This document shows, one piece after another, positions 8,619 through 53,200 of a stretch of 64,000 nucleotides of DNA. Within the stretch, counting starts at the first letter, position 1. Every line of letters begins with the position of its first letter. The notes below the pieces were generated by a model, which saw only the letters and a program-made list of their open reading frames with translations, searched no databases and was not told the DNA's origin. The position numbers and the translations under genes are program-made. The DNA comes from Erpobdella octoculata (taxonomy: Eukaryota > Annelida > Clitellata > Hirudinida > Erpobdellidae), in assembly GCA_963978895.1 (NCBI GenBank), contig OZ022247.1, positions 8,802,947-8,866,946 on the forward strand, read 5' to 3'.

Positions 8619-9112
8619 TAAATTATATATGAAGCTCCGAAAATGGCTGAGTATGTCGATGGCGGTTTTAATTTGTCAGGTAAAAGTTCATTTAATTTAA
8701 TTAATATTCTGTGTCTCTGTTAAAAAGCAGTTTTGTAAGTACGATTTCAATCTGTATATAATGCCATTTTTAACTTTCATATCATTTTAAATAATTTAAT
8801 TTAATATAGGGTTCTGAAGATGGATTTTGCTGAAACTGGCCGGTAGACCCAGATTTTATAGTTGTAAAACTTTAAAACCAATACATTTTCAACTCTATCT
8901 CTTAATTTCAAAGGAATGAAAAAGTTTTTAAAAACTTGTTTCGAAAAATGAAAAAATGTAGTGGCCAATAGTTTTTTTATATTTTGTTTATATTAGTTTA
9001 TAGTCTTTTACACCAGGAGTTTTAAGACTGCTCAGGATTAGGAGTCAGCCAGAGCAGGTTTGAAAAAATGAGTATTACATTGTGTAAAAAGTCAAAAAAA
9101 CTATAAGCGTGG

Positions 9113-20600: not shown

Positions 20601-23211
20601 GCAGATGGTTAGAAAAATTTTTTTGAAGTTTTAAATTATATTTTCTAATATAATTTCAAATATTTTCATAAAATTATAAACCTATTTTGGAAGACGTGGG
20701 TAGATGAATTTCTACAATGGGACAAGAATGAAAACAACATTTCTTACATTGTCGTAAACGCAAAAGATATTTGGTATCCGGATCTTGTCATTCGCAACAG
20801 GTCATCATTTCAAATTTTTTACTTTTCACTTGTGCTTTTAAAATATTAATCGATAACCAATTTCATTTGAATATACCATGACCAGCGCCGATGCCATATA
20901 CGGTGAAATATTCGATAGCACCAAATACAAAGTTCCTATATACTCTAATGGGATGGTATACTTCTACACAGCTGGTCAGACAAAGACATTTTGCAAATTG
21001 GATCTAACTTACTTTCCATTTGACGTTCAAGCTTGTTACATACATGTTGATAGTTGGACCTATTCGGTTACTCAAGTGTATCTTGATACAACTCGGGGAG
21101 TAGTAACAGAGCTCTATAATGAGAATGGGCAATGGACGCTGGTGTCTACAAAGGTGAGATTTTTGTGAGCGGACTGTTTCATTAGTGGCGTAACTAAGGT
21201 GTACAAATGAAAGATCAGCCCCATGAACCGTCAAGTATATAGACATAAGGCTACGGCTCTTGTAAGCTATTTATCTGTATATATTTCAACTCTGGATTCG
21301 ATTCCCTACAAGCTTGTCTGGTTTTTGTTAATGTTTATTTTTTATGAAGTTACGGCTCTACACCAAGTAGAAGAAACATAGGAGATACAAATTAAAAACT
21401 TATTTTTTGCAAAATATGTTTGCAGCATAAAAACGTACATCATAAATTTTTAATTTTATTTTAAAACTTAAAAGAAACATTGTTTAACTTAACAAAAGAT
21501 TAATTAAAATTATTTTATCATTACTTCAATCCAGAGACGTTTTTGTAAACTAAACAAGGCCGTGGACATAAAATGGTAGTTAAAAAATATATAAATATTT
21601 CTAAAAAATATATTTAATAACTAGCGGGGTACCCGGCGTTGCCCGGGGGTTTTAGAGGTTTTTCTATCGTTGTTCTCTTTTGCTTCCCTTTCCTTCCCTG
21701 TTTGCTTTCACGCTCTGGGTCGATTTCCCGTTTCCGCTTGCTCTCCCGTTCTTGGTCGCTTTCTTTTTCCCGCTCGCTTTTTCGCTCCCGGTCGCTTTTT
21801 CGTTTTTGATTGCTTTCCCGATCCCGTTCCCTCTAATTCTCCAGTTCCCGTTTGCTCTTCCGTTCCCGTTTCTGCTCATTTTATTGACTCTCAAGGTTGT
21901 GTGAAAATGTCATTACGATCGGATGAATGGTGTAGCAATGCTTAAAAGACATTCAAACATACATAATCTCATTTTTATATATAAAGATTTTATATTTTTT
22001 CAAAATTCTTAACTTGTTTATCAATAGAACAATGTATCTCAAGAAACGTTCAACGGAGACGTCTATTCTGAATTGAAATTCATTTTCCACCTGAAACGCA
22101 AACCCTTGTACTTCATGACAAACCTCATCATTCCATGCTGTCTCATGTCAGCCATCGTTCTTTTTGTTTTCCTCCTTCCAGCCAATGCAGATGAAAAAGT
22201 CTCCCTCAGTATAACTGTTCTTCTCTCGTTTTCAGTTTTCCAACTTCTCGTAGCTGGAAGCATGCCGGAAACATCTGACTATGTTCCTCTAATAAGTATT
22301 ATACAAATATTTTTTATTAATGTTTTATGCTATTGTATTATGATCTGCTATAATACTGCTAATTTTAAGCAACTTAATAATTTTAAATGTTTTTACTAAA
22401 ACTTTTGATAGCTGTCTACATAACATTTGTGGAGTTTTTATCTGCCATGTCACTATTCTCTACCATAGTAGTCCTCATGTTACATCACCACAATTGTCAC
22501 ATTCCACCTCCGAAATGGTTGCAAACACTTGCTCTTGAGTGGATGGCTTTTATCTTTTGTATAAAAAAGAAACCCAGCAAAGCTGTTAAGCAACAAGAAA
22601 ATGGAGATAAATCAAGAACTCAATCAATTCAATCAAGAAGAACAACATTAGAAACCTTATCTACCCAAAGTAGCCTCAACGACATAACACAAGCCTACAA
22701 TAATAATAACAACAACAACCAAGATACTGAAACACCAATTATAGTTAATAGAGAAAAAATAATAAACAACAAAATAAATTCAATACAAGTTGAGGCTGAC
22801 GTAGCAACACAACAAGCAAACAAGTTGGATAACGGGAACAGTATGACACACGTTAATAACAAGCAGGGACTTCAATTTTTCAACCAAAGTAAACACACCC
22901 CAGATTCATTTGAACAGGAAGAGCCATCAATTGATAATTTCAAGGATTTCAGTGGACAGGAAGTTGACGTTTCCTATCAACAGAAAGATAAACTTTCTTC
23001 AGTTTATGATCTTGTTAAAGTTAGTCTGGCAAGAATTAACAATGAAAAACGTCGGGAAGAAATAACAAAGCAATGGGCAGAAATTGCATTGGTTTTTGAC
23101 AGATTATTTCTCTTTGTTTTCCTGACTATAAATCTGATCGTCGCCGCTGTTTTACTTGGAATTATTCCACAGTTTGGACCCGATACGGTAGAACCTGCAC
23201 CTGTTTCATAA
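14661..23211 (+). CDS. Nicotinic-type Cys-loop receptor subunit, paralogue 1 (5' exon not found)
   Basis: Plasma-membrane pentameric ligand-gated ion-channel subunit. Exons read from GT-AG sites with consistent phase: 14661-14797, 20563-20607 (15 codons, the small exon typical of this family), 20694-20800, 20886-21153, 22028-22295 and 22412-23211 (stop TAA). The Cys-loop is C-x13-C with the FPFD core, followed by the loop B motif SWTY. M1 lies after KRKPLYF. M2 reads EKVSLSITVLLSFSVF, with the cation-filter Glu at -1' and Leu at 9'. M3 and a long Asn/Gln-rich cytoplasmic loop precede M4, which starts near DRLFLFVF. Oddities: no vicinal Cys pair in loop C, the loop A Tyr is replaced (VIRNR where LYNN is usual), and the 20' residue is Gly, not Glu. 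The signal-peptide exon was not located, so the N-terminus is open. The 5.8-kb intron after the first exon holds two hAT insertions. AATAAA at 23517 is a candidate poly(A) signal. The family call is firm; ligand and subunit class are unknown. Confidence 0.9.
15835..15975 (+). repeat. Dispersed LINE/SINE tail-like repeat, copy 1
   Basis: Starts GCGAGCCAGTCCCAAGCCTGG and continues through GGAGGGACAGTTAAAAGGATC to GTGTAAAGGACTATAAAC. A diverged copy lies at 40225-40370, and shorter related pieces near 1012 and 10485. The consensus resembles tails of non-LTR retroelements. The class is unproven. Confidence 0.55.
16056..17812 (+). mobile_element. hAT element, copy A, with nested LINE
   Basis: Termini CATTAGCGTACGAGCC and GGCGTACG (complemented right end CATAGGCGTACG), flanked by 8-bp duplications ACCATAAC/ACCATACC (one mismatch). 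It encodes a broken transposase: 16353-16694 gives ENVWIYTDRFAQSVKT, and 16746-17129 gives the C-terminal dimerisation domain (TAIPATTCSAKRSFSALRRI). A stop lies between them and the catalytic core is largely deleted. A second copy of the same family is at 55835-57164. It sits in intron 2 of receptor paralogue 1, after the 14661-14797 exon. Confidence 0.9.
17128..17570 (+). mobile_element. 5'-truncated LINE tail nested in hAT copy A
   Basis: Flanked by CAATTATT on both sides (17120-17127 and 17571-17578), and absent from the sister hAT copy at 55.8 kb, so the insertion is demonstrable. It encodes the end of a non-LTR reverse transcriptase (PRIYSTIPISVSSLKRISLF, then KQALKSYLL and stop) and finishes with an A-rich CAATAAATAAATTAAAAA tail. 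It is probably CR1/L2-like. Confidence 0.8.
18081..19094 (+). mobile_element. hAT element, decayed, with near-perfect TSD
   Basis: Left end CAAGGGCGGATCCAAGG; right end, complemented, CACTGGCAGATCTAGAAC. The flanking 8-mers TTGAGAGC and TTGAGAAC differ at one base. Internal sequence 18440-18960 retains KRLKKMK and NRTVLASIFETIQFAA, matching the TTF/DUF4371 part of hAT transposases, with stops. Lies in intron 2 of receptor paralogue 1. Confidence 0.75.
19150..19720. mobile_element. Inverted-repeat element (TA-flanked MITE)
   Basis: Left arm TAGAATAAATATATCGG (19168-19184) and its complement at 19686-19702, with weaker similarity outward over GGGTATAG.CAT. The interior is non-coding. Probably a Tc1/mariner-like MITE embedded in TATA sequence, which hides any TA duplication. 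Confidence 0.6.
21621..21987 (-). mobile_element. Non-autonomous Helitron in receptor paralogue 1
   Basis: Read on the minus strand it starts A|TCTTTATATATAAAAATGAG and ends CCGGGTACCCCGCTAG|T, preceded by a GC-rich hairpin (CCCGGGCAACGCCGGGT). This is the TC...CTRR layout between A and T. A CGGGAACGGGAAAGC minisatellite fills the middle. Lies in the intron between the Cys-loop and M1 exons. Confidence 0.75.
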
Positions 23212-33106: not shown

Positions 33107-36100
33107 ATTGCACCAAAACAGCAGAAAAGCTTCTGTTAGATAGATTATTTGATGGATACGATCCTAGAATTCGACCAACGCGTAGTAATTCAAATCCAAT
33201 CGTAGTCCATGTTGATTACTGGTTTGTTTCTCTCCTTGATTTGGTCAGTTTAAAACTTATTTCATTAGAAAAATTACATTAACTAATTTATTATGAATGT
33301 GTTTACATTTTTATTTAAAATTAAAAGTTGAAATTACTATTCAAACTGAGTTAGATTAATTTGTTTATTGATAGTATCTTCATTGGAAATATATTATCAT
33401 TAACACAACTAATTTAAGTTGTTTGAAAAAATGTTTTATTTTTATTCTTAAATCAAATAATGTTGCTTTGTTTAAAAAAAAATTCAGCAAGAAAAGAGTC
33501 AAATTTTATCATCTTTCGGTTGGATGCAGATGGTTAGGAATCTACTTATGAGTTGTTTTTTGAAGCTTTGAAACAACGTTTTCCAGGCGCGGTCCTACCA
33601 TTAGGGGAGGCTGGGGATGCAACCCCCCACCAGCCTCAAAGCTCAAATTTTTCAAAAAATAAATAAAGTTAAACGTACACCAAACAACCCCCCGCCTAAC
33701 CCCAACTATTTATCTAACCTATATAGTTATAAAATATGAATAATTCTGTGGACATCAGCAATGCGCAATTAATATCTCATTACTATAACCTAAGTAAGAT
33801 TTGCTTGACCAACCGAAGGCGATTATGTCCTGCCAACTAGCAGCTTATAAATGAAGATACCAGCTAAGGCGATTCTCATTTGGTTTTAAATCGTTTTTGG
33901 GTTTTCTATTCCTTCAACCTATCCTCCGACCTACCAAATGTACACAAAAAATTTCATAAAAAACGGTTCAGTCGTTTCGGAGGACTTCAATTTCAAACAC
34001 TATGACACGAGATTTATATATATATATATAGATTTATCAAAGCATGAATTTCCGCTTTGGACCTCACTGAAAAAACAACGGGTTGGCAAGCGGGAACGGG
34101 AAAGCAGTCGGAACGGCGAAACAAGCGGAAACGGAAAAGCAAACGGAAGCGGGAAAGGAAACAGGAGCAAAAAAAAGAACGATAGAAAAACTTTCAAAAA
34201 CCCTGGGCATTGTACACTCGATGGCCTTTCGAGATGGATTTTTTTAAATTGACATAATTGTGTACATTAAACTTTAATAAAAAAAACCAAAATAATTTAT
34301 AAGGTAAAACAACGTTTGCTGGGTCAGCTAGTATAATATAAGACTCCCAATCAACGATATCATCCCCCCACCAGAAAATCCTGGGACCGCGCCTGAAATT
34401 TTCCAATTTTACTTTAACCATTTGCTGTAAATAAAAATCACTTTTATAGACGTGGGTAGATGAATTTCTACAGTGGAACAAGAATGAAAACAACATCTCT
34501 TACATTGTCGTAAACGCAAAAACCATTTGGTATCCCGATCTTATCATTCGCAACAGGTCAGCCTGTCGAATTTTCTACTTTTGACGTAATTTTAGAATAA
34601 TAAATTGTTTCTACAAATGTGTGCATATTGTAGTTCTATTTAGTAAAAAAATCTTTATAAAATAATTGTTGTATAACTAAATCTGTTTTAACCAGCGCTG
34701 ATGCCATATATGGTGATATATTCGACGGATTAAAATACAAAGTTCCTATATACTCCGATGGGACGGTATACTTCTATACAGCTGGCCAGACTGTAACATT
34801 TTGCAAATTAGACTTAACTTTCTTTCCATTTGATGTTCAAGCTTGTTACATACATGTTGATAGTTGGACTTATTCTGTTTCTCAAATTTATCTTGATACA
34901 ACTCAGGGAGTAGTAACTGAACTATATAATGAGAATGAACAATGGAGGCTGGTGTCAACAAAGGTGAGATTTTGTAATACAATTATTTATTTGACTGATA
35001 ACCATCTAATGACAATATTGTGAATTAACAATTATGCCGTAAAAACAGGTTTTTTCGCAAATCCCTCATATTTCTTGATTTGCCGGTTTTTCATTTATTA
35101 CAAAAATTATTTCAAAATGGCATTTCTTTGCCAGGGGTTTTCAGAAGTTTTTCTATCATTTTTCTCTTTCGCTCCCTTTTCTTTCCCCACTTGCTCTCCC
35201 GTTCCAGATTTTTTCCGTTCCCAGTCGTTTTCCCGCTCCAGGTCGCTTACTCGCTTTCGATCGCTTTCCCGCTCTCCGTCGCTTTCCCGCTTTTCATCAA
35301 AAAAGATGCTAATTTGGTACAAAGTAAATTTGCATCAGAAACCGCTTTGAATTCTTTCTAATTTTTGTTCTTTTCATATATATTTAAATGATTGTTTATG
35401 AATTTGTTTGTTTGTCCAAGGATATCTGGATATAACAACTCGATCCACAACCTACTCTAGTAGGTCTAGGCAGTTCAGCCAGTTACGTCATAGTTACATC
35501 AAAATTTGTAGAAGTATGATATAACTACTATGCTTTTGTAGTTTGTTACATCAATTTATTTATAATTATGATATAAAAAGCGATAAAACATTAGGCCTAC
35601 TAGAGTAGGTTGTGGATCCAGTTGTTATATCAAGATATCCTTGGTTTGTCCTTTATAGAAATCTGAACCGCTGGATCGATCTTGATGAAATTTCGCAAGG
35701 AGGTAGATCTCATACAGGGAAACAAAGTTAATAAGGTTTGGACTTCCTACTACCATCTCCCGGCTCAGGGGAGGGGGGGAACCTTTTCCAGACCAAAAGT
35801 GCCTATGTACGACCATCAAAGGTAATTGCGTAATAAAATTCAAATTTATTTCACGTAACAACGTTTGAAAGCTTCAAGCAACCTTTAGCAAATCTATTTT
35901 ACGTTTTATGGGCTAAAAGAAGTTAGGAAAGAAAGGAAAAGAAAAAATGAGCGCGAGCTTGAACGGGAACGGGAGAGCAAACGTGAGCGGGAACGAGAAA
36001 GCGATCGGGAACGGGAAAGCGACCGGAAGCGAGAAAGCAAGCGGGGAAGGAAACGGGAGAAAGAGAGAAAACCGATAAAAAATTTCTGAAAACCCCGAAC

Positions 36101-37263
36101 AACGCCGGTTAACCCCGCTAGTTTCGTTATAAAACTTTATTTACAACAACAGGTTAATTCGTCTCAAGAAATGTTCAATGATGATGCCTATTCTGAACTG
36201 AAATTCATTTTTTATTTGAAACGCAAACCCTTGTACTTCTTGACAAACCTCATCATTCCATGCTGTCTCACATCATCCATCGTTCTTTTTGTTTTCCTCC
36301 TTCCAGCCAATGCTGACGAGAAGATCTCCCTCAGTATAACTGTTCTTCTCTCGTTTTCAGTTTTCCAACTTCTCGTAGCTGGAAGCATGCCGGAAACATC
36401 TGACTATGTTCCTCTAATAAGTATTATACAAATATTTTTATTAATTTCTTGTGCTATTGGTCTGCTATAATACTGCTATTTTTAAACAGCTTAATAATTT
36501 TAAATGTTTTTTAATAAAAATTTTTATAGCTATCTACATAACATTTGTGGAGTTTTTAGCTGCTATGTCACTCTTTTCTACCATAATGGTCCTCGTGATA
36601 CATCACCACGATTGTCAATTTCCACCTCCCGAATGGTTGAAAACAATTGCGATTAAGTGGATGGGTTTAATTTTTTGTATTAAAGAGAAAACCAGGAGAA
36701 ACTCGAAAAAACAAGAATATCAAGAAAAATCAAGAACTCAATCCATGCAATCACAAAAAAGTGTCTTAGAAGCAGTATCTACCAAAAGCAGCTTCAGCGA
36801 CATAAATCAAGCCGACAACAACAATCAAAATACTGAAACATCCATCATAATTGACAGAGAAAAAGTAGCTAACAAAATAAATTCCAAAGAAGTTGAAGTC
36901 GGGAAAAAAAACGCAACTGGCAATAAAAATCATAAAATTCAATTTCTCGACCAAGTCAAAAGCTCTCCAAATTCATCTGAGCCGGAAATGACGTTGATGG
37001 ATAATATACAAGAAATGGGCGGCCTTCGTCAGCAGATGGAAACATTTTTACCAGTTTACGATCTTGTTAAAGAAAGTCTCGAGAAAATCACCATTGAAAA
37101 ACGACGGCTAGAAGTGAGAGATCAATGGACAGAAATAGCTCTGGTTTTTGACAGACTATTTCTTCTTGTTTTTTTGACTTTAAACATTATCGTTGCCGCC
37201 GTTTTACTTGGAATTCTTCCACAGCTTGGACCAAACTCAGTTGAACCTATACCTGTTTCATAA
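33107..37263 (+). CDS. Nicotinic-type Cys-loop receptor subunit, paralogue 2 (5' exon not found)
   Basis: Tandem paralogue of the subunit at 14.7-23.2 kb, with matching exon lengths and phases: 33107-33243 (137 bp), 33488-33532 (45), 34450-34556 (107), 34696-34963 (268), 36153-36420 (268) and 36530-37263 (734, stop TAA). The Cys-loop is C-x13-C with FPFDVQAC, loop B is SWTY, and M2 is EKISLSITVLLSFSVF ending VAGSMPETSD. M4 begins DRLFLLVF and the C-terminus is short. Like its partner it lacks the loop C Cys-Cys, has VIRNR in loop A, and has Gly at M2 20'. M1-M3 are nearly unchanged between copies, whereas the cytoplasmic loop is shorter here and has diverged. The intron after the first exon is only 244 bp here against 5.8 kb in paralogue 1. 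The next intron carries a hAT element, and the one before the M1/M2 exon carries a Helitron. No signal-peptide exon was found upstream. A cation-selective pore is inferred from Glu -1'. Confidence 0.9.
33594..34395. mobile_element. hAT element in intron of receptor paralogue 2
   Basis: Termini CAGGCGCGGTCCTA and (complemented) CAGGCGCGGTCCCAGG, flanked by ACGTTTTC/AAATTTTC (6 of 8 match). It lies between the 45-bp and 107-bp exons, and the corresponding intron in paralogue 1 lacks it, so it inserted after the duplication or was lost there. It contains a Helitron-like copy ending at 34331. Confidence 0.75.
33990..34331 (+). mobile_element. Helitron-like copy nested in the hAT element
   Basis: Ends AACGTTTGCTGGGTCAGCTAG|T. 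It contains the GGAACGGGAAAGC minisatellite and a TATATATATATAG tract near 34018. An upstream CCGAC...GGTTCAGTCGTTTCGGAGG segment (33910-33985) may belong to the same element, in which case the start is earlier. Confidence 0.6.
35037..35373 (-). mobile_element. Helitron-like minisatellite fragment
   Basis: Carries the same Helitron minisatellite in minus orientation (GCTTTCCCGCTC units, 35215-35295) next to GATTTGCCGGTTTTTCATTT, which also occurs at 11450. Element ends are not clear. Confidence 0.45.
35374..36121 (+). mobile_element. Helitron in receptor paralogue 2, carrying a nested MITE
   Basis: Probable 5' end TCATATATATTTAAATG at 35374. The 3' end is GCCGGTTAACCCCGCTAG|T at 36121. The second half is a GGGAACGGGAAAGC-type minisatellite (35945-36065). 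Lies in the intron just before the M1/M2 exon, in the same relative intron as the Helitron of paralogue 1 but in opposite orientation, so it is an independent insertion. Confidence 0.7.
35416..35644. mobile_element. 229-bp inverted-repeat MITE nested in the Helitron
   Basis: About 45-bp terminal inverted repeats (CCAAGGATATCTGGATATAA and its complement at 35625-35644, continuing to CTACTCTAG) with two mismatches. TTTGT occurs on both outer sides (35411-35415 and 35645-35649), a likely target duplication. The interior is AT-rich and non-coding. Family unknown. Confidence 0.85.
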
Positions 37264-45915: not shown

Positions 45916-46422
45916 TGGTGTAATATTTCACGCGGTATCGACCGACCGTCTGACCGACTTAAGCTGTCTCGAGATGCTAAAACAGACTTTTATGAAAGAG
46001 GTGATGTGCACCCTCATTACAGACTAGAGCCAGTTCCATGGCATCAGCACCAATAACAAAAGGGTTCCAATTAATATAAGGCACTATATAAATGCACATA
46101 AAAATGCAACATTATTTACCAAAGACTTGAGAGTGACATATGTACCTTTTTTTTTTATCTTATTATATTACCGCATGCCTATCTCCATGTTTGCCTCATC
46201 TACATGGAATGCCTCCCAGCCACTTTTCGTCTCCATAAAAAGTTTTCTTTAAATTCCACCCACCAAAACAAGTCACACATATAATGCCTCACTATTACTT
46301 ATCAGCCCCACGTATGGTTTAGTTTTTATTTTAATCAAGTTTTTGCGTGGCTAGCGTTATTTTCAACTTCGGCTGCATTATATTTAGTATTAGAAGTTTG
46401 AAGTTTAAAAATATTATTTTAG

Positions 46423-48268
46423 GTCAAACAGCTTGAAGATACTTCCAACAGGTACAATCGTTCGTGGCAGTGGAAAGAGTCAGTTCTTTGATAAGGTTTG
46501 TCAATACACGTTGAGTTTGAGTTTGTTTATTCAGTTATCAATACATACATTCAAAATCACAAATAAGACAGAACAAAAAAAAAACTGCGTTATATTCTGT
46601 TTCATCCTGTTTCTCTATGAAATGTTATAGATGAATTATGGTTATTATGACAAGATAAGAAATTCTGGGCATGTTTTTTGTCAGCTTAATTTTCTTAATT
46701 TTCAGTCTTGTATGTAATTTTTAATATATTATTTAACTTTAAATTTCTGAATGAGTCACTGTCACCTCCACAATACAATCATCATCATCATAAATATATA
46801 TTTATATAATAGATGGTTATATAACAATTATGTAAGTGTTTAACCACAAATACTACTCTGATATTGACCAGCTAAGATGCAGAAGTTTTTTTGTTGTAAA
46901 TCTTTCAAAAAATGCTTTGATTAATTTTGCACATTCACTCGAATATTCAAACGTCTCAGAAAGCTTTTTGTCTTTCGAGAGTGAAACAGCGCAGTGTTAT
47001 TAATTATTATTTTTTTTTATTATCCTTGAATTTACTTACACGTTTCCCTTTTATCTCTATGTACTGCTCGACTTTATTGCACAATTTTTAAATTCTCGTG
47101 AGGATGTTGTTACAAATAACTACTTCGCGTAATTGAAGATCACCACATTCAGAGTCAAGATCATTTTATAAAATTTTCTAATTTTTAATTTTTATGATGA
47201 AATTTAAACTAAACTAAACAAAACAAAACAGAATATTCGCCTTAAAAAAGTTTGCAATTGTTATTAAGTTAACAATGACAGCAGCTTTTATATTAAAGGA
47301 TAATAAATAAAAGTGCATTATTCAACAATCAAATGTCATTTTTCAATTAAAAAAATTATTAAAAATTGGTAAATTTATTGAATGATGACTATGGAAATAT
47401 GTTCTAAATATATTATTAAAGTTAATTATATTAGTTATCTAAAAAATGGCAAACGGCTATGTTGTGTATCCGAGGATACATAACATGCGGATGTGTTAAT
47501 ATCTTGTCACTTCCATTTTTCTGATCTTTCTGCCCAGTAAATTGTTTCAATTAGTCAGTTGTTTTCAAGTTTTGAAATTCCGATAGCTGCAATGAAAGGG
47601 TTATTTATGGATGGAGGTTTTTGTTAAACACTTTTTACTGGACTTTATAGCTTAGATTATTATGTTATTTTGTTCATTATGTATATTGATGAATTTCACT
47701 AATCTTTTTAGAGCCAGTTGATTCTAGTGAAAGAGGAAGGGAAATTGCCTGGCAGAGATATTGCCAGTAGCTCTTCTGCAAGATTTCCAAGATTTCAAGA
47801 ATGTGCTCATTTCCATTATGAACTCGTCAGCATTTCTGGCATTAAAGTAGGTTCTTGTTGAACAGTTTGGTTTGTGATTTTTTTTGTTTTAAATTCAAAG
47901 TTGTTATCAAAATAAAAATTTTATTTGCTAATAAGGCCCAGTAAATAGTCCTTAGACCTATAGGCCACGAATCATTTGTTTAACTTTAATCAGTCGTGGG
48001 CCCATTAACAGAACAACAAGAGGCAGCCATATATAAGGGTCTACCCACACCCCTTGCAGATGCTGGTGGTTCCGGTGGGATTCAAACCGCAGACTTTCAG
48101 GTCTACACGTGAATGCCTTGCCTCTATACCACCAGGGCTTGCCCAATAAGTTTTCCTAATTTCCATTGGGTTCGAGTTCGGCAACATAAAAATTTGGGTT
48201 TGTTTGAGTTCGGTTTGAAATTTTAAAATTATGGGTTCGAGTTCAAAAAGTTGGGTTTAATTTCCATC

Positions 48269-48305
<37 letters not shown>

Positions 48306-48586
48306 TAATATACTTTGGCAAAATCCCCTCTCGTAAACACACTCCGTTAAAAACAAACGACCACTTTGCATTAATGACTTTTCTAATAAACTGTTCAAAA
48401 TATTTAATTTTACGACGTAAACTAGAGTCCATTTTAAAAATTTATATAATACAAATAATAATAATTAGGACTGACTGGCCAGTTTCGACTACAGTCATCT
48501 TCAGAGTCCGTAACCTAAAATGTCGTATTACGTAAACAGCTAAAGAATATATAGTAAACATCAACATAGAAATAGTGTTGTGCCTA

Positions 48587-48651
<65 letters not shown>

Positions 48652-49365
48652 TGGGTGATCAGTTAACGAACAAATCGGATAACGAACACTTCCATGAAAG
48701 AATTTTGTGTTCGGACAACGAACATATATTCGGATAACGAACATATATTCGGATAACGAACATATATTCGGATAACGAACTTAAACAAATTTCACGGAGC
48801 GGTTACCGGTAAGCGGAAATCTGCTGTCACTGTGCGTGTGAACTGTCCTCACCATAAAAACAAAGCAAGAGATTATAGTTAATGTAGAGAGTGGACAGAA
48901 GGCGGCTGATGTTGCGAGACAGTATGGTTTGAATAGGTATACGGTATGCACAATCTTAGCTAAGAAAGATATCCAAAAGACTCATTCAGCTAAATGAGTA
49001 ACGAAAAATGAAAAGGCCTGAATAATATACAAGACTATATGAATATGTATTATTTTTCTTGATAAACTTACTTAGAAATTATACATAATTTGTTTATAAT
49101 TTCATTTCTAAGGGTCTCTGGAACGAATTAATCGGTTAACGAACAATTCGGATAGCAAACACAGTCTTGGAACGGATTATGTTCGTTAACCGATCACCCA
49201 CTGATTTGTAATATATTATATATATATATATATCGAGCATTGATTCGGACCCATTCATAGTCGAGTGTTGTGTTCAACATACCCCAACAAAAGCGCTTAA
49301 CAACCACTGTTTTTGGCGGTGGAAGTAGCACAGATGGTAAGGTAGTTGGCATGATGGAGGCGGTG

Positions 49366-49400
<35 letters not shown>

Positions 49401-50211
49401 TATATATATATATACATATACATATATATATATATTTATGTTTTTGAATACTTCGGCGCTATATGTTCTTTTAGGCAAACTCGATTGAAAAAAGTGGCGC
49501 ACTTGGCTGAATCGATTTTATTTTTAATTTTTTCCAATACTCTAAATCGGTTTAAAAATAATTTATTCCCAATTAATAAACAATGGTATTCTTTTGATTT
49601 AACTCTTAAACTTTTTGGTTCTCTAAATAGTAATAAAACTAATAATAATAATAATAATAAATGTTTTAACTCATTTACAACTTCTGTTAAAAATATGCAT
49701 GTTAATAGTGCCAATGTTTCTTCAGGTATTTCTTCGTTGAATGAATGTTTTGTACCAGACGTTTGTGTTTCAAAGGTTATAGATAATGTATGTGATTCTT
49801 CTTCCAGTCACGTCCTTGAAGTTGACTGTAATTCCGTTGCTAAAGGCTTTACTAACTGATCTTAATTATTTAGTTATTACTGTTATTATTATAATTATTT
49901 TAATTTAAATATTTTTTATGTTGTTACATTTGTATATAATGAATTTAAATTTTATTTAAATTGTATTTTAATTCCTTTCAATTAGTTGTATCTTTTACCA
50001 TTTAGTCACTGCATTTTATTTTAAAAAGTTAAACGGCTCTGATGATGGCAAAAAATTGCCGAAATAGATCTATTAGCCTATAAGATTATGGAGTTTGTGT
50101 TTGGGAATAAATTATTTTTAAACCGATTTAGAGTATTGGAAAAAATTAAAAATAAAATCGATTCAGCCAAGTGCGCCACTTTTTTCAATCGAGTTTGCCT
50201 AAAAGAATATA

Positions 50212-50273
<62 letters not shown>

Positions 50274-53200
50274 TGTATGTATGTATGTATGTATGTATAT
50301 ATATATATATATATACACATGCTTCTTTTAATAATTTATTCAGCTTACTCTGCTGGGTCAAAGATTTGAAGTCGATGCTTCAAAAGTATGCAGGTTTTAT
50401 GTGTTGGTGAGCTGTGGTGATCATGGCTGGACAGTGAAAAGATCATTTGAAAGTATTTGTAAAGTTGATGAATTACTTCATCAATGCGTTTACAGCAGGA
50501 GTTCCAGTCTGCTGCCGGAACTTCGTGAAAATTTAATGGACAGGTTTGGAAATGAGGTATGCTTGATTGTTATAATACAAGTGAAATATCATTTAAAAGA
50601 ATTCACTAGTAGTCTTAGGGATAAAAACTTGTTTATGGTTAAATATATTTTATCAAGTTCTGATTAACTTGTTAGAAGTTTGTTGCTATATTATATAAAA
50701 GATTATATATATAATCTTAAGCATGCCGAACCGCTTCATAGTCACAACATTCAAGGCTAGGACCGTTTTTACAGGCACAAATTATCAAGAGAGTCTATGG
50801 CTCCAATGCATCGAAGTTTTGGGTTGTGTTGTGTTGAGTTTTTTGTGTGGTCGCGTCTACAAGAGTTGACTTACAGATAATTCTGGTTCATATATATGTA
50901 AAATATATATTTTACCTCCTTCAGTAAGAGTGGGTAATCTGCTAGCCTGAGGCTTTTGATAAATTAGATAGTATTATTTCATGCTCCTCTTCAGGAATGG
51001 AACTCTTATTTCTCGTTTTCATTCACGGCCAAGGTAGTCACGTTGCATACTATTGGAAGCTCATATGGTCCCTCTTTGAAGATCAAACAATCGTTTAAGA
51101 CTTTTTGCAATTCAGCTGAATGTATTTAGAATAACCATTGATTCAATCAAAAACGGTTCTCTATCTTGCATCATTATTTAATCAAGTCCTTTAGGGACGT
51201 TTTCTGTTTTTTGTGCACGTTAGTTTTGCATTTTTTTAAACTTTCGCTTATGAAATCTATTTTTTTAATTGGAGTTTTGTTAACATCTTAAGAAGTGGCT
51301 ATTAAAACCACAGATGATTTCTTTTGTATCACATTGTTAGCAAAAAACAATGTATCAAAAATGGTGATACTTTTTTAAAGAATCTAAATAATAAATGTCT
51401 AACTTTTTAAATTTCTAGTTTCTGAGTTTCAATGCATATAAAGTCTTTCTTTTCCACCTCTGAGGTCTTGGAAGCCAACTTATCAAAAATAGTTAATAAC
51501 TTGTATCTTTATTTTTCAAATAGAATCTAAATATTAATTTTCATACCGGTACTTTTTGGTTTTTAAGTGGCAGCTAGTTTAAAAAAATTAACTTTTTCCA
51601 TCTCACATTTAAAGCCCCAGAAACAAAATAACAAAAAAAACAACAAAACCATAATTTTTTATTTTTTTAAGATGATTCTAAGTACTGAATTTAAAAAATT
51701 TAACTATATGGTTCGAGGCTGGGATTGAAAAGTTGAAGCCTGCCGCAGATGCTAAGTTCACTGCACTTCTGAGTACAAGAAAAAAGCCATGAGTAAAAAC
51801 AAGAGTTGCCTGCAGAATCAAAAGCCCCGACACTTTTTTGAGTTTTCTTTTTCCTGCTGCTGAGCTACGCATTTAGCAGACGTGAAGACGGCATCTACCT
51901 CCATCCACGAAGTGACTGGAACTTCTTCAACCTCGGCTGCCTCGGGGCGAGGACCAGGGTGCACGGAATCCTTATTCTGGAATTGCTTTTTGCCGAAGAC
52001 GCTGCCCTCGCCGCTCACTCCGAGGCCGCTGTTCAGCGACTCATTGCTCGTTTTGCGGAGGCATGCGCAGAGTTCGGGCTCACCATAAGGAAAACCCAGG
52101 TCATGAGTCAGGATGTCAGCTCTGTTCCTACAGTCACAATCGATGAACACACCCTGGACGTGGTGGACAAGTTAATGTACCTCAGTTCCACTATCTCCAG
52201 CAACCTGTCCATGAATGCCGAGCTCAACGTGAGGATAGGTAGGCTGGCGATTGCCATGGCTCGCCTCGCGAAACGTGTGAGACAATTCTGTGCTGACCCT
52301 CAGGACAAGAATGGAATTGTACCGGGTGTGTGCTGGGCCCTATGCTCTTCTATAATGCAGTCTCCACTTTTGACCACCCTGTATGCTTCTCAAGAACGGA
52401 GACTGAATGTCTTCCGTTTGCGCTACCTCGGGTAACTACTTGGCATCACCTGGTGGGAGCATGTCTCCAATGCAGACATCTTGACCATGGCAGGGATATT
52501 AAGCATGTTTGCTATTCTTTCTCAGAGACATCTGCACTGTCTAGGACACATCTGCAGGATGGATGATGGTCTCATCCCATAGGATATCTTCTATGGTGAG
52601 CTAGCCACAGAAACGTGTCCAATCGGACGACTCTTTCTGCTCTACGAGGATGTCTGCAGGAGGGACCTGAAGTCATGCAACACCGGCCTAGCTAATCTTC
52701 GAGGCAGCGACTTCTGCCCGCTCTGGCTGGCGAGACCGGCATCCAGCGGGCCGAGGAGATCCGGCGGGAGGAGGGGAGGGGTCGTGGGCAGCTGAGGGCA
52801 AGGGATGTCGCTGTTTCCTTCATGGTCCGTGCCGCTGAGTACACCTGTGGAAAATTTGGAAGAAGCTTCAGCTCCCATATTGGCTTATTCAGCCACAGCC
52901 AACAATGCAGCTTCACCGGGTGTGCGCGTGCGTGCGTGCATGTGTCTGCATGAGTGAATTTATTTGTTATGTATGATTTAAAACAAGAATCTTTTTAATA
53001 TTGCTAATTTCGTTTATTATGATTCTTTGAACAAAAATTATCGAATAAATTATTTTCAATTGGTAACAAATTCAATTCAAAGGAGTGCTTTAAAATGCTC
53101 GGAAATTACATCAATATCCTTTCAAGTTTGTTGCTCAAGGCAGCTGATCTTCTCACTTGTGGACCCGTTCTTGCCTGGTTGGAAGTTAGTTGATTCGTCT

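Follow-up and report, generated by a model that had tools for sequence, protein, structure and literature searches.

Hammerhead ribozymes of Penelope-like elements (PLEs) were reportedly described by Cervera and De la Pena in 2014 and by Lunse, Weinberg and Breaker in 2017, and the title of the 2017 paper is said to state that PLE hammerheads cleave as dimers. In outline, publications already cover such hammerheads, their dimers and the placement of a start codon at stem II. In the portions of the reviews that deal with PLEs, small type I hammerheads are placed in the pLTRs, and tandem units and possible cleavage as dimers are described (PMC6155905, PMC7761336); the corresponding section of the 2020 review terms their in vivo role a mystery (PMC7761336). 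For PAc (Poseidon, from Anolis carolinensis), the relevant sections of one paper give a start of reverse transcription (RT) 111-118 bp into the ORF, a second RT site that yields an optional tail of 30-40 bp, and AT-rich targets (PMC11167929). According to the same sections, the PAc ribozyme needed protein in vitro and was dispensable for insertion, and RNA-seq ends at the ribozyme cut site were not seen (PMC11167929).

The two folds reported here, assigned to families A and B, resemble the PLE hammerheads of those review sections in being small, of type I and located in the pLTRs of tandem units (PMC6155905, PMC7761336). Helix III is described there as lacking, whereas stem III is a palindrome of 10 nt (13 copies) or 8 nt (one copy) in 14 of the 22 copies parsed here. 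With PAc, as far as it is covered in the sections cited, the folds share a hammerhead at the pLTR/ORF junction, an internal RT start, an optional tail and AT-rich targets, and the PAc ORF begins at the start of stem II, as does the frame opened by the AUG in the core here (PMC11167929). The PAc cut lies 26 bp inside the ORF, whereas in A and B the ORF AUG would follow the cut by 13 and 40 nt, respectively, and the core AUG heads a uORF; the palindromic stem III of both families is a further difference from PAc, to the extent described in that source. Newt and axolotl retrozymes, in the passages of the paper dealing with them, are alike in a weak stem III, in efficient dimer cleavage and, for one axolotl group, in the palindromic loop of stem III, and differ in having tandem repeats of 330-350 bp, tertiary loop contacts and no RT-coding units (PMC7229834). 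Phage hammerheads from IMG/VR contigs share the arrangement CTGATGA-U-GGC...GCC-GAAA with stems I and III; unlike those of A and B, their stem III is palindromic in only 1 of 73 distinct sequences and their AUG is not tied to ORFs.

The window, i.e. the whole 64-kb stretch of DNA analysed here, was searched over its full length with an independent script for CUGANGA, a stem II, GAA, a short stem III and a closing stem I. Exactly two folds were recovered, and they are the same two that the first-pass annotation had reported on opposite strands:

50035..50078, plus strand: family A hammerhead, type I, with a 5-bp stem II and the palindromic stem III ATAGATCTAT
48468..48509, minus strand: family B hammerhead, with a 3-bp stem II (GAC/GUC) and the palindromic stem III ACTGGCCAGT

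Fold A is laid out as GGCT/CTGATGA/T/GGCAA..TTGCC/GAA/ATAGATCTAT/T/AGCC and fold B as GGACT/CTGAAGA/T/GAC..GTC/GAA/ACTGGCCAGT/C/AGTCC. The type I core (C3 U4 G5 A6 N7 G8 A9...G12 A13 A14 A15.1-U16.1 H17) is present in both, and each forms a three-stem junction that is open at stem I and carries one additional base at position 9.1. Cleavage is predicted 3' of U17 at 50074 in family A and 3' of C17 at 48473 in family B. The palindromes had been given as 8 nt long; they are indeed palindromic, but measure 10 nt once the A15.1-U16.1 pair is counted. Likewise, the folds had been placed just before a short ORF, but an ATG sits inside each core (50045 in A, 48498 in B).

Under strict criteria (Watson-Crick stems, stem I of at least 4, 10 or more stem pairs in total), an equally good fold was found in 0 of 500 dinucleotide-preserving shuffles of the window. 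Loose criteria gave 51 matches in 200 shuffles, or about 0.26 per window by chance, so that the compactness and strictness of the folds are what counts. The reading of both folds as products of chance, which only those very loose matches would favour, is refuted by the strict shuffles and by the genome-wide search, in which the core pattern (limited to a GGC/GCC stem II, so that the GAC/GUC of family B falls outside) had 2128 exact matches and the reversed pattern 0; its probability is negligible.

Elsewhere in the window, two related exon sets at 22028-23211 and 34661-37263 possibly form a tandem gene pair. By eye, they resemble subunits of acetylcholine-receptor-type (Cys-loop) channels; for one Cys-loop-like ORF, no relative was found at E <= 1e-3 among 961 candidates.

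Insertion anatomy of two PLE families

Both folds lie within insertions whose parts are assigned as follows:

49439..49579, minus strand: inverted second start of the family A ORF, with the long tail (99% inverted repeat with 50101-50213)
49572..49859, plus strand: C-terminal part of the family A reverse-transcriptase ORF (residues 788-882 and stop), in a 5'-truncated copy
49860..50034, plus strand: family A 3' UTR/pLTR, from the ORF stop to the hammerhead
50045..50083, plus strand: short family A uORF, MAKNCRNRSISL and stop, whose AUG consists of A9, the extra U and G10.1
50088..50207, plus strand: opening 120 nt of the PLE ORF of family A, called the 'tail', with a (TA)n run at its end, the short end site
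48302..48432, minus strand: opening 131 nt of the PLE ORF of family B (MDSSLRRK...), with a (TA)n run at its end
48442..48498, minus strand: short family B uORF, MTVVETGQSVLIIIICII and stop, beginning at the hammerhead AUG (residue 1 of protein P0061 aligns at 48498)
48510..48585, minus strand: remnant of a family B pLTR lying upstream of the fold, by eye apparently 5'-truncated at a (TA)n run

The genome from which the window was taken comprises 386 Mb in 94 contigs. A DNA search with the plus-strand element yielded 43 family A matches including the window copy, and 41 of these covered nearly the full length at an identity of 98-100%. Scoring was confined to 40 of 1110 first-look candidates, so that the true family size is probably far greater. 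For family B (query 48306-48585; 40 of 259 candidates scored), 40 of 41 matches were full length and 100% identical after rounding, again with the window copy included. Two family A copies on one contig (locus L240) define a tandem unit of 2877 bp, with an open 882-aa ORF containing a reverse-transcriptase domain between them. One hammerhead at this locus lies at most 10 nt before the ORF, and another follows the 3' UTR ahead of the next ORF start. The tail at 50088..50207 was identical (100%, tblastn) to residues 1-40 of this ORF. The tandem unit of family B measures 3534 bp and has an open RT ORF of 991 aa.

RVT_1 was detected by Pfam in the 882- and 991-aa ORFs with E-values of 5e-15 and 1.2e-7, respectively. 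Over 822 aa the two ORFs share 41% identity, and folds A and B therefore differ in their stems through real divergence. The family A ORF has 428 protein relatives at E <= 1e-3, of which the best 120 were listed; from domain order and tandem anatomy, we infer that these relatives are PLEs. Their N-terminal motif KK...WS..FN..CLKEN is present in both window tails. No Pfam match to GIY-YIG was obtained in the ORFs of A and B at E <= 1, and the aligned region of the relative P0104 is a GIY-YIG domain (E 6.1e-6, Pfam); the alignment with P0104 suggests that such a domain may be present in A and B as well. Pattern stretches were found in viral contigs (93) and in GTDB contigs (12), and none was confirmed as a PLE relative.

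The 3' ends of the copies are fixed. Among 34 family A copies at 30 loci, 25 end at +120 of the ORF, 8 at +145, and 1 runs on; for family B, 29 of 30 copies end at +131 and 1 runs on. In both families these ends abut A/T-only DNA. The two elements thus combine an RT ORF, tandem units with pLTRs and fixed 3' ends inside the ORF start, all features of PLEs, and they are called Penelope-like because this insertion anatomy agrees with that of the Anolis PLE and because of the RT relationship. The folds are pLTR/ORF-junction hammerheads of two different PLE families, A on the plus and B on the minus strand. Both loci are 5'-truncated PLE insertions that terminated in (TA)n microsatellites, and each family has numerous near-identical copies. 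The earlier suggestion of type I PLE hammerheads is supported by the tandem units with RT ORFs, the 428 relatives and the fixed 3' ends. As an alternative identity, retrozymes, i.e. small non-autonomous elements with circular RNA and type I hammerheads, are refuted by the RT ORFs, and this assignment has next to no probability: animal retrozymes likewise have tandem type I hammerheads, as stated in the sections cited (PMC7229834), but the units of 2877 and 3534 bp with RT ORFs stand against non-coding repeats of about 170-400 nt, and neither is a small non-coding repeat.

The 99% inverted repeat of the family A locus is explained by the inverted copy of the ORF start on its left side. Within 49439-50207, the tail is long (+145) on the inverted ORF start and short (+120) on the direct one; a single insertion may have drawn on two RT start sites. 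A multi-unit tandem array was noted at G000:C1:6633034-6644580, where five hammerheads of family A type follow one another on the same strand every 2874-2896 bp. At another locus (L291, G000:C1:27415453-27415868), two hammerheads related to family A stand in direct orientation 51 bp apart, with the short AUG frame repeated. Between the two insertions of the window, at 48658-49205, repeat copies of GTTAACGAAC/TCGGATAACGAAC flank a short coding-like stretch, which by eye resembles a remnant of a Tigger/pogo-type DNA transposon.

Model searches, covariation and palindromic stems

With Rfam, no hammerhead match was obtained anywhere in the window at gathering scores, in 46000-52500 at E <= 10, or in 8 loci of other variants. 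RF00163 had no match genome-wide but also none in any of 14 control genomes, which makes the genome-wide result uninformative. Folds A and B do not match the curated Rfam hammerhead model. A custom covariance model was built from nine intact variants, with folds A and B among the training sequences; both were scored by it, at 60.0 and 52.7 bits. A significant covariance score, the kind of support named in the first-pass annotation, was therefore given by the custom model only, which had been trained partly on both folds, and not by Rfam. The same model detected one further copy, outside its training set, with 35.8 bits and an E-value of 1.5e-8, which is rough, as are all E-values from this nine-sequence model:

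8809..8850, plus strand: third, decayed hammerhead, GGGTT CTGAAGA T GG..., with the frame MDFAETGR and stop

This frame, with its early stop, is a decayed trace of the start seen in the other hammerheads. Hammerheads in 13 phage loci were also scored, at 19-37 bits, so the custom model is not specific for PLEs.

The genomic variants were taken from the core-pattern matches. Of the 2128 places, 100 were listed, all on contig C1, and 20 of these were fetched, comprising sites with differing stem II sequences and some second copies. In 15 distinct variants, with decayed copies kept and the window folds included, 161 of 180 cells held standard pairs, whereas shuffling the partners gave 127 of 180 on average and at most 141. 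Nine variants were selected from the 22 parsed copies as intact and mutually different, with decayed copies and near-duplicates left out. In this set 99.1% of cells were paired and 11 of 14 pairs had changed on both sides (6/6 in stem I, 1/3 in stem II, 4/5 in stem III), and in slid controls pairing dropped to 18-44%. The covariation score and three other measures were reached by 0 of 500 shuffles, while the fifth measure, further pair types, was attained in 42 of the 500; these statistics ignore the shared descent of the variants. Within a family the copies hardly differ, so that all of the covariation stems from comparing variants with one another. Because stem II pairing was preset by the search pattern in the fetched sites and the parser of the 22 copies picked the end of stem III by pairing, it is stems I and III that carry the independent weight. 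The compensatory changes across the nine variants support the selection on structure for which the first-pass annotation had argued.

The structure might be kept for another role in RNA or DNA, for instance as a site near the RT start where the PLE protein binds, or as a target of an endonuclease, with cleavage being vestigial. The position of the hammerhead directly at the ORF start would suit this explanation, and in the relevant sections of the Anolis study ribozyme mutants still inserted and the initial 172 nt of the ORF contained the minimal template (PMC11167929). However, the catalytic letters CUGA.GA...GAAA and U16.1 are invariant while stems I and III drift and compensate; a simple binding hairpin needs no such exact letters, although their invariance arises partly by construction, as the sites were chosen by the core. 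A non-catalytic role is consequently held to be improbable, and retention of a cleaving ribozyme is the preferred reading.

Of the 9 intact variants, 8 have a perfect 10-nt palindrome as stem III, and six different sequences are represented among them. The two central stem III pairs show two-sided changes, although they cannot pair inside one hairpin; since these compensated pairs form only between copies, dimeric cleavage is the best reading for the PLE hammerheads A and B. In folding calculations, a linked dimer of A formed a double hammerhead at -29.5 kcal/mol (z -3.59), and a linked dimer of B did so at -28.8 kcal/mol with a z of -1.44, i.e. modestly beyond shuffles. The minimum-energy fold of neither monomer was a hammerhead. 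The dimer that had been proposed at first pass is thus favoured by the palindromes, the dimer folds and the compensation at the central pairs, with the modest z of the family B dimer standing against it.

The AUG in the catalytic core

The extra base at 9.1 was present in all 2128 matches with a GGC/GCC stem, and the pattern without it was found 0 times. Among the 100 places listed, this base was U in 99 and A in 1, with 17 different U-bearing sequences from core to GAAA; stem I is broken in the single copy with A. Together with A9 and G10.1, the extra U forms an AUG. In 73 distinct phage hammerheads, no extra base was found in 56, U in 15, G in 1 and A in 1. These counts stem from 112 of 120 loci; the other 8, which were also matched by a U-requiring pattern, could add U cases, so that the share of U is about 21-28%. 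The extra U is therefore tolerated elsewhere and close to fixed among the places listed in the genome of the window. As a shared departure from the canonical core, which is how it had first been described, it is present in both folds, but it is not simply a shared defect, since it is found in part of the phage hammerheads and here builds an AUG.

In five variants (L277/L293/L294, L283, L284, L289 and L292; 7 of the 20 fetched sites), the frame of the core AUG enters the conserved PLE N-terminus. The remaining 13 sites do not reach it because of a missing AUG (L278), a stop or repeat, or truncation (L276); in L296, which is an upstream copy of L276 type, the core-AUG frame extends over 227 aa. 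GCC GAA AC reads Ala-Glu-Thr in several core-AUG variants. The protein P0061 from a public collection, which starts with MAAAETG, aligns with its residue 1 at the family B AUG (32% over 62 residues, E 8e-5). When N-termini were back-translated, 5 of 120 relatives (the best 120 of 428) were able to encode a hammerhead, as compared to 4 of 600 shuffled sequences, a signal that is suggestive only. In several related variants, the core AUG is probably the start codon of the ORF. An extra core letter that spells a protein start codon is the unusual point of these hammerheads. In the literature passages on PLE hammerheads that were covered, no statement that a core AUG is general was found, and an AUG inside the core is mentioned in the Anolis PAc paper alone (PMC11167929).

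In families A and B, the core-AUG frame stops after 12 and 18 codons, respectively, 4 and 9 nt before the ORF AUG, and the family A frame recurs in the close relative L286. The predicted cut falls inside this uORF, with the ORF AUG 13 nt (A) and 40 nt (B) downstream. Cleavage would strip off the upstream AUG and leave the ORF AUG as the first one.

A neutral or structural extra U, inherited by common descent rather than selected as a start codon, is the alternative that survives best, and we regard it as a real contender, at somewhat under an even chance. The same U in 15 of the 73 distinct phage sequences is in its favour, as are the early stops in A and B and the 13 of 20 fetched sites without a run from the core AUG into the PLE N-terminus. 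So is the behaviour of the phage frames: a start-codon role of the phage core AUG is not supported, as frames of at least 30 codons were opened by it in 18 of 58 cases versus 40 of 120 for other frames. Neutrality is opposed by the complete absence of GGC/GCC-stem matches without the extra base in the genome of the window, by the frames that reach the PLE N-terminus or, in L296, extend over 227 aa, and by the alignment of P0061 from its first residue.

A more far-reaching interpretation of the core AUG as a start codon is a switch between translation and cleavage, which would have been rewired in A and B, with the palindromic stem III making it dependent on copy concentration. This is put forward tentatively and is rather unlikely to be right in full. 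If it were true, a transcript would have two fates: translation with the ribozyme unfolded, or cutting, which parts the AUG from the ORF; cutting would depend, through the palindrome of stem III, on the concentration of transcript copies. In A and B, where the cut would take away an upstream AUG, cutting could promote use of the ORF instead of blocking it.

Proposed processing of tandem transcripts

Very probably, each fold is the small type I hammerhead of a PLE pLTR-ORF junction; it would serve to cut tandem transcripts, which would pair via stem III, into unit-length RNA. From the anatomy described above, the following course of transcription, dimerisation, cleavage and translation is proposed. 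Head-to-tail tandem units would be transcribed together, and two hammerheads, in one RNA or in two, would pair via the 10-nt self-complementary stem III. The resulting double hammerhead would cut after position 17 and free an RNA of unit length; this RNA would begin with a 5'-OH, and its first AUG would be that of the ORF. Reverse transcription would begin about 120-145 nt inside the ORF and so give rise to the fixed 3' 'tail'. In uncut RNA of A and B, the core AUG would open the uORF of 12 or 18 codons that ends just before the ORF. Participation in RNA processing, or in setting when translation occurs, is likelier than a role in integration, because the Anolis ribozyme, according to the sections cited, needed protein and was dispensable for insertion (PMC11167929).

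One genome with more than 2000 core matches, many variants and open ORFs provides a set for both comparative and experimental work, and the palindromes render the dependence on dimers open to test by compensated stem swaps. For PLE hammerheads, the overlap of the catalytic core with a start codon would offer a concrete role, namely the choice between an RNA that serves as mRNA and one that is processed into a template.
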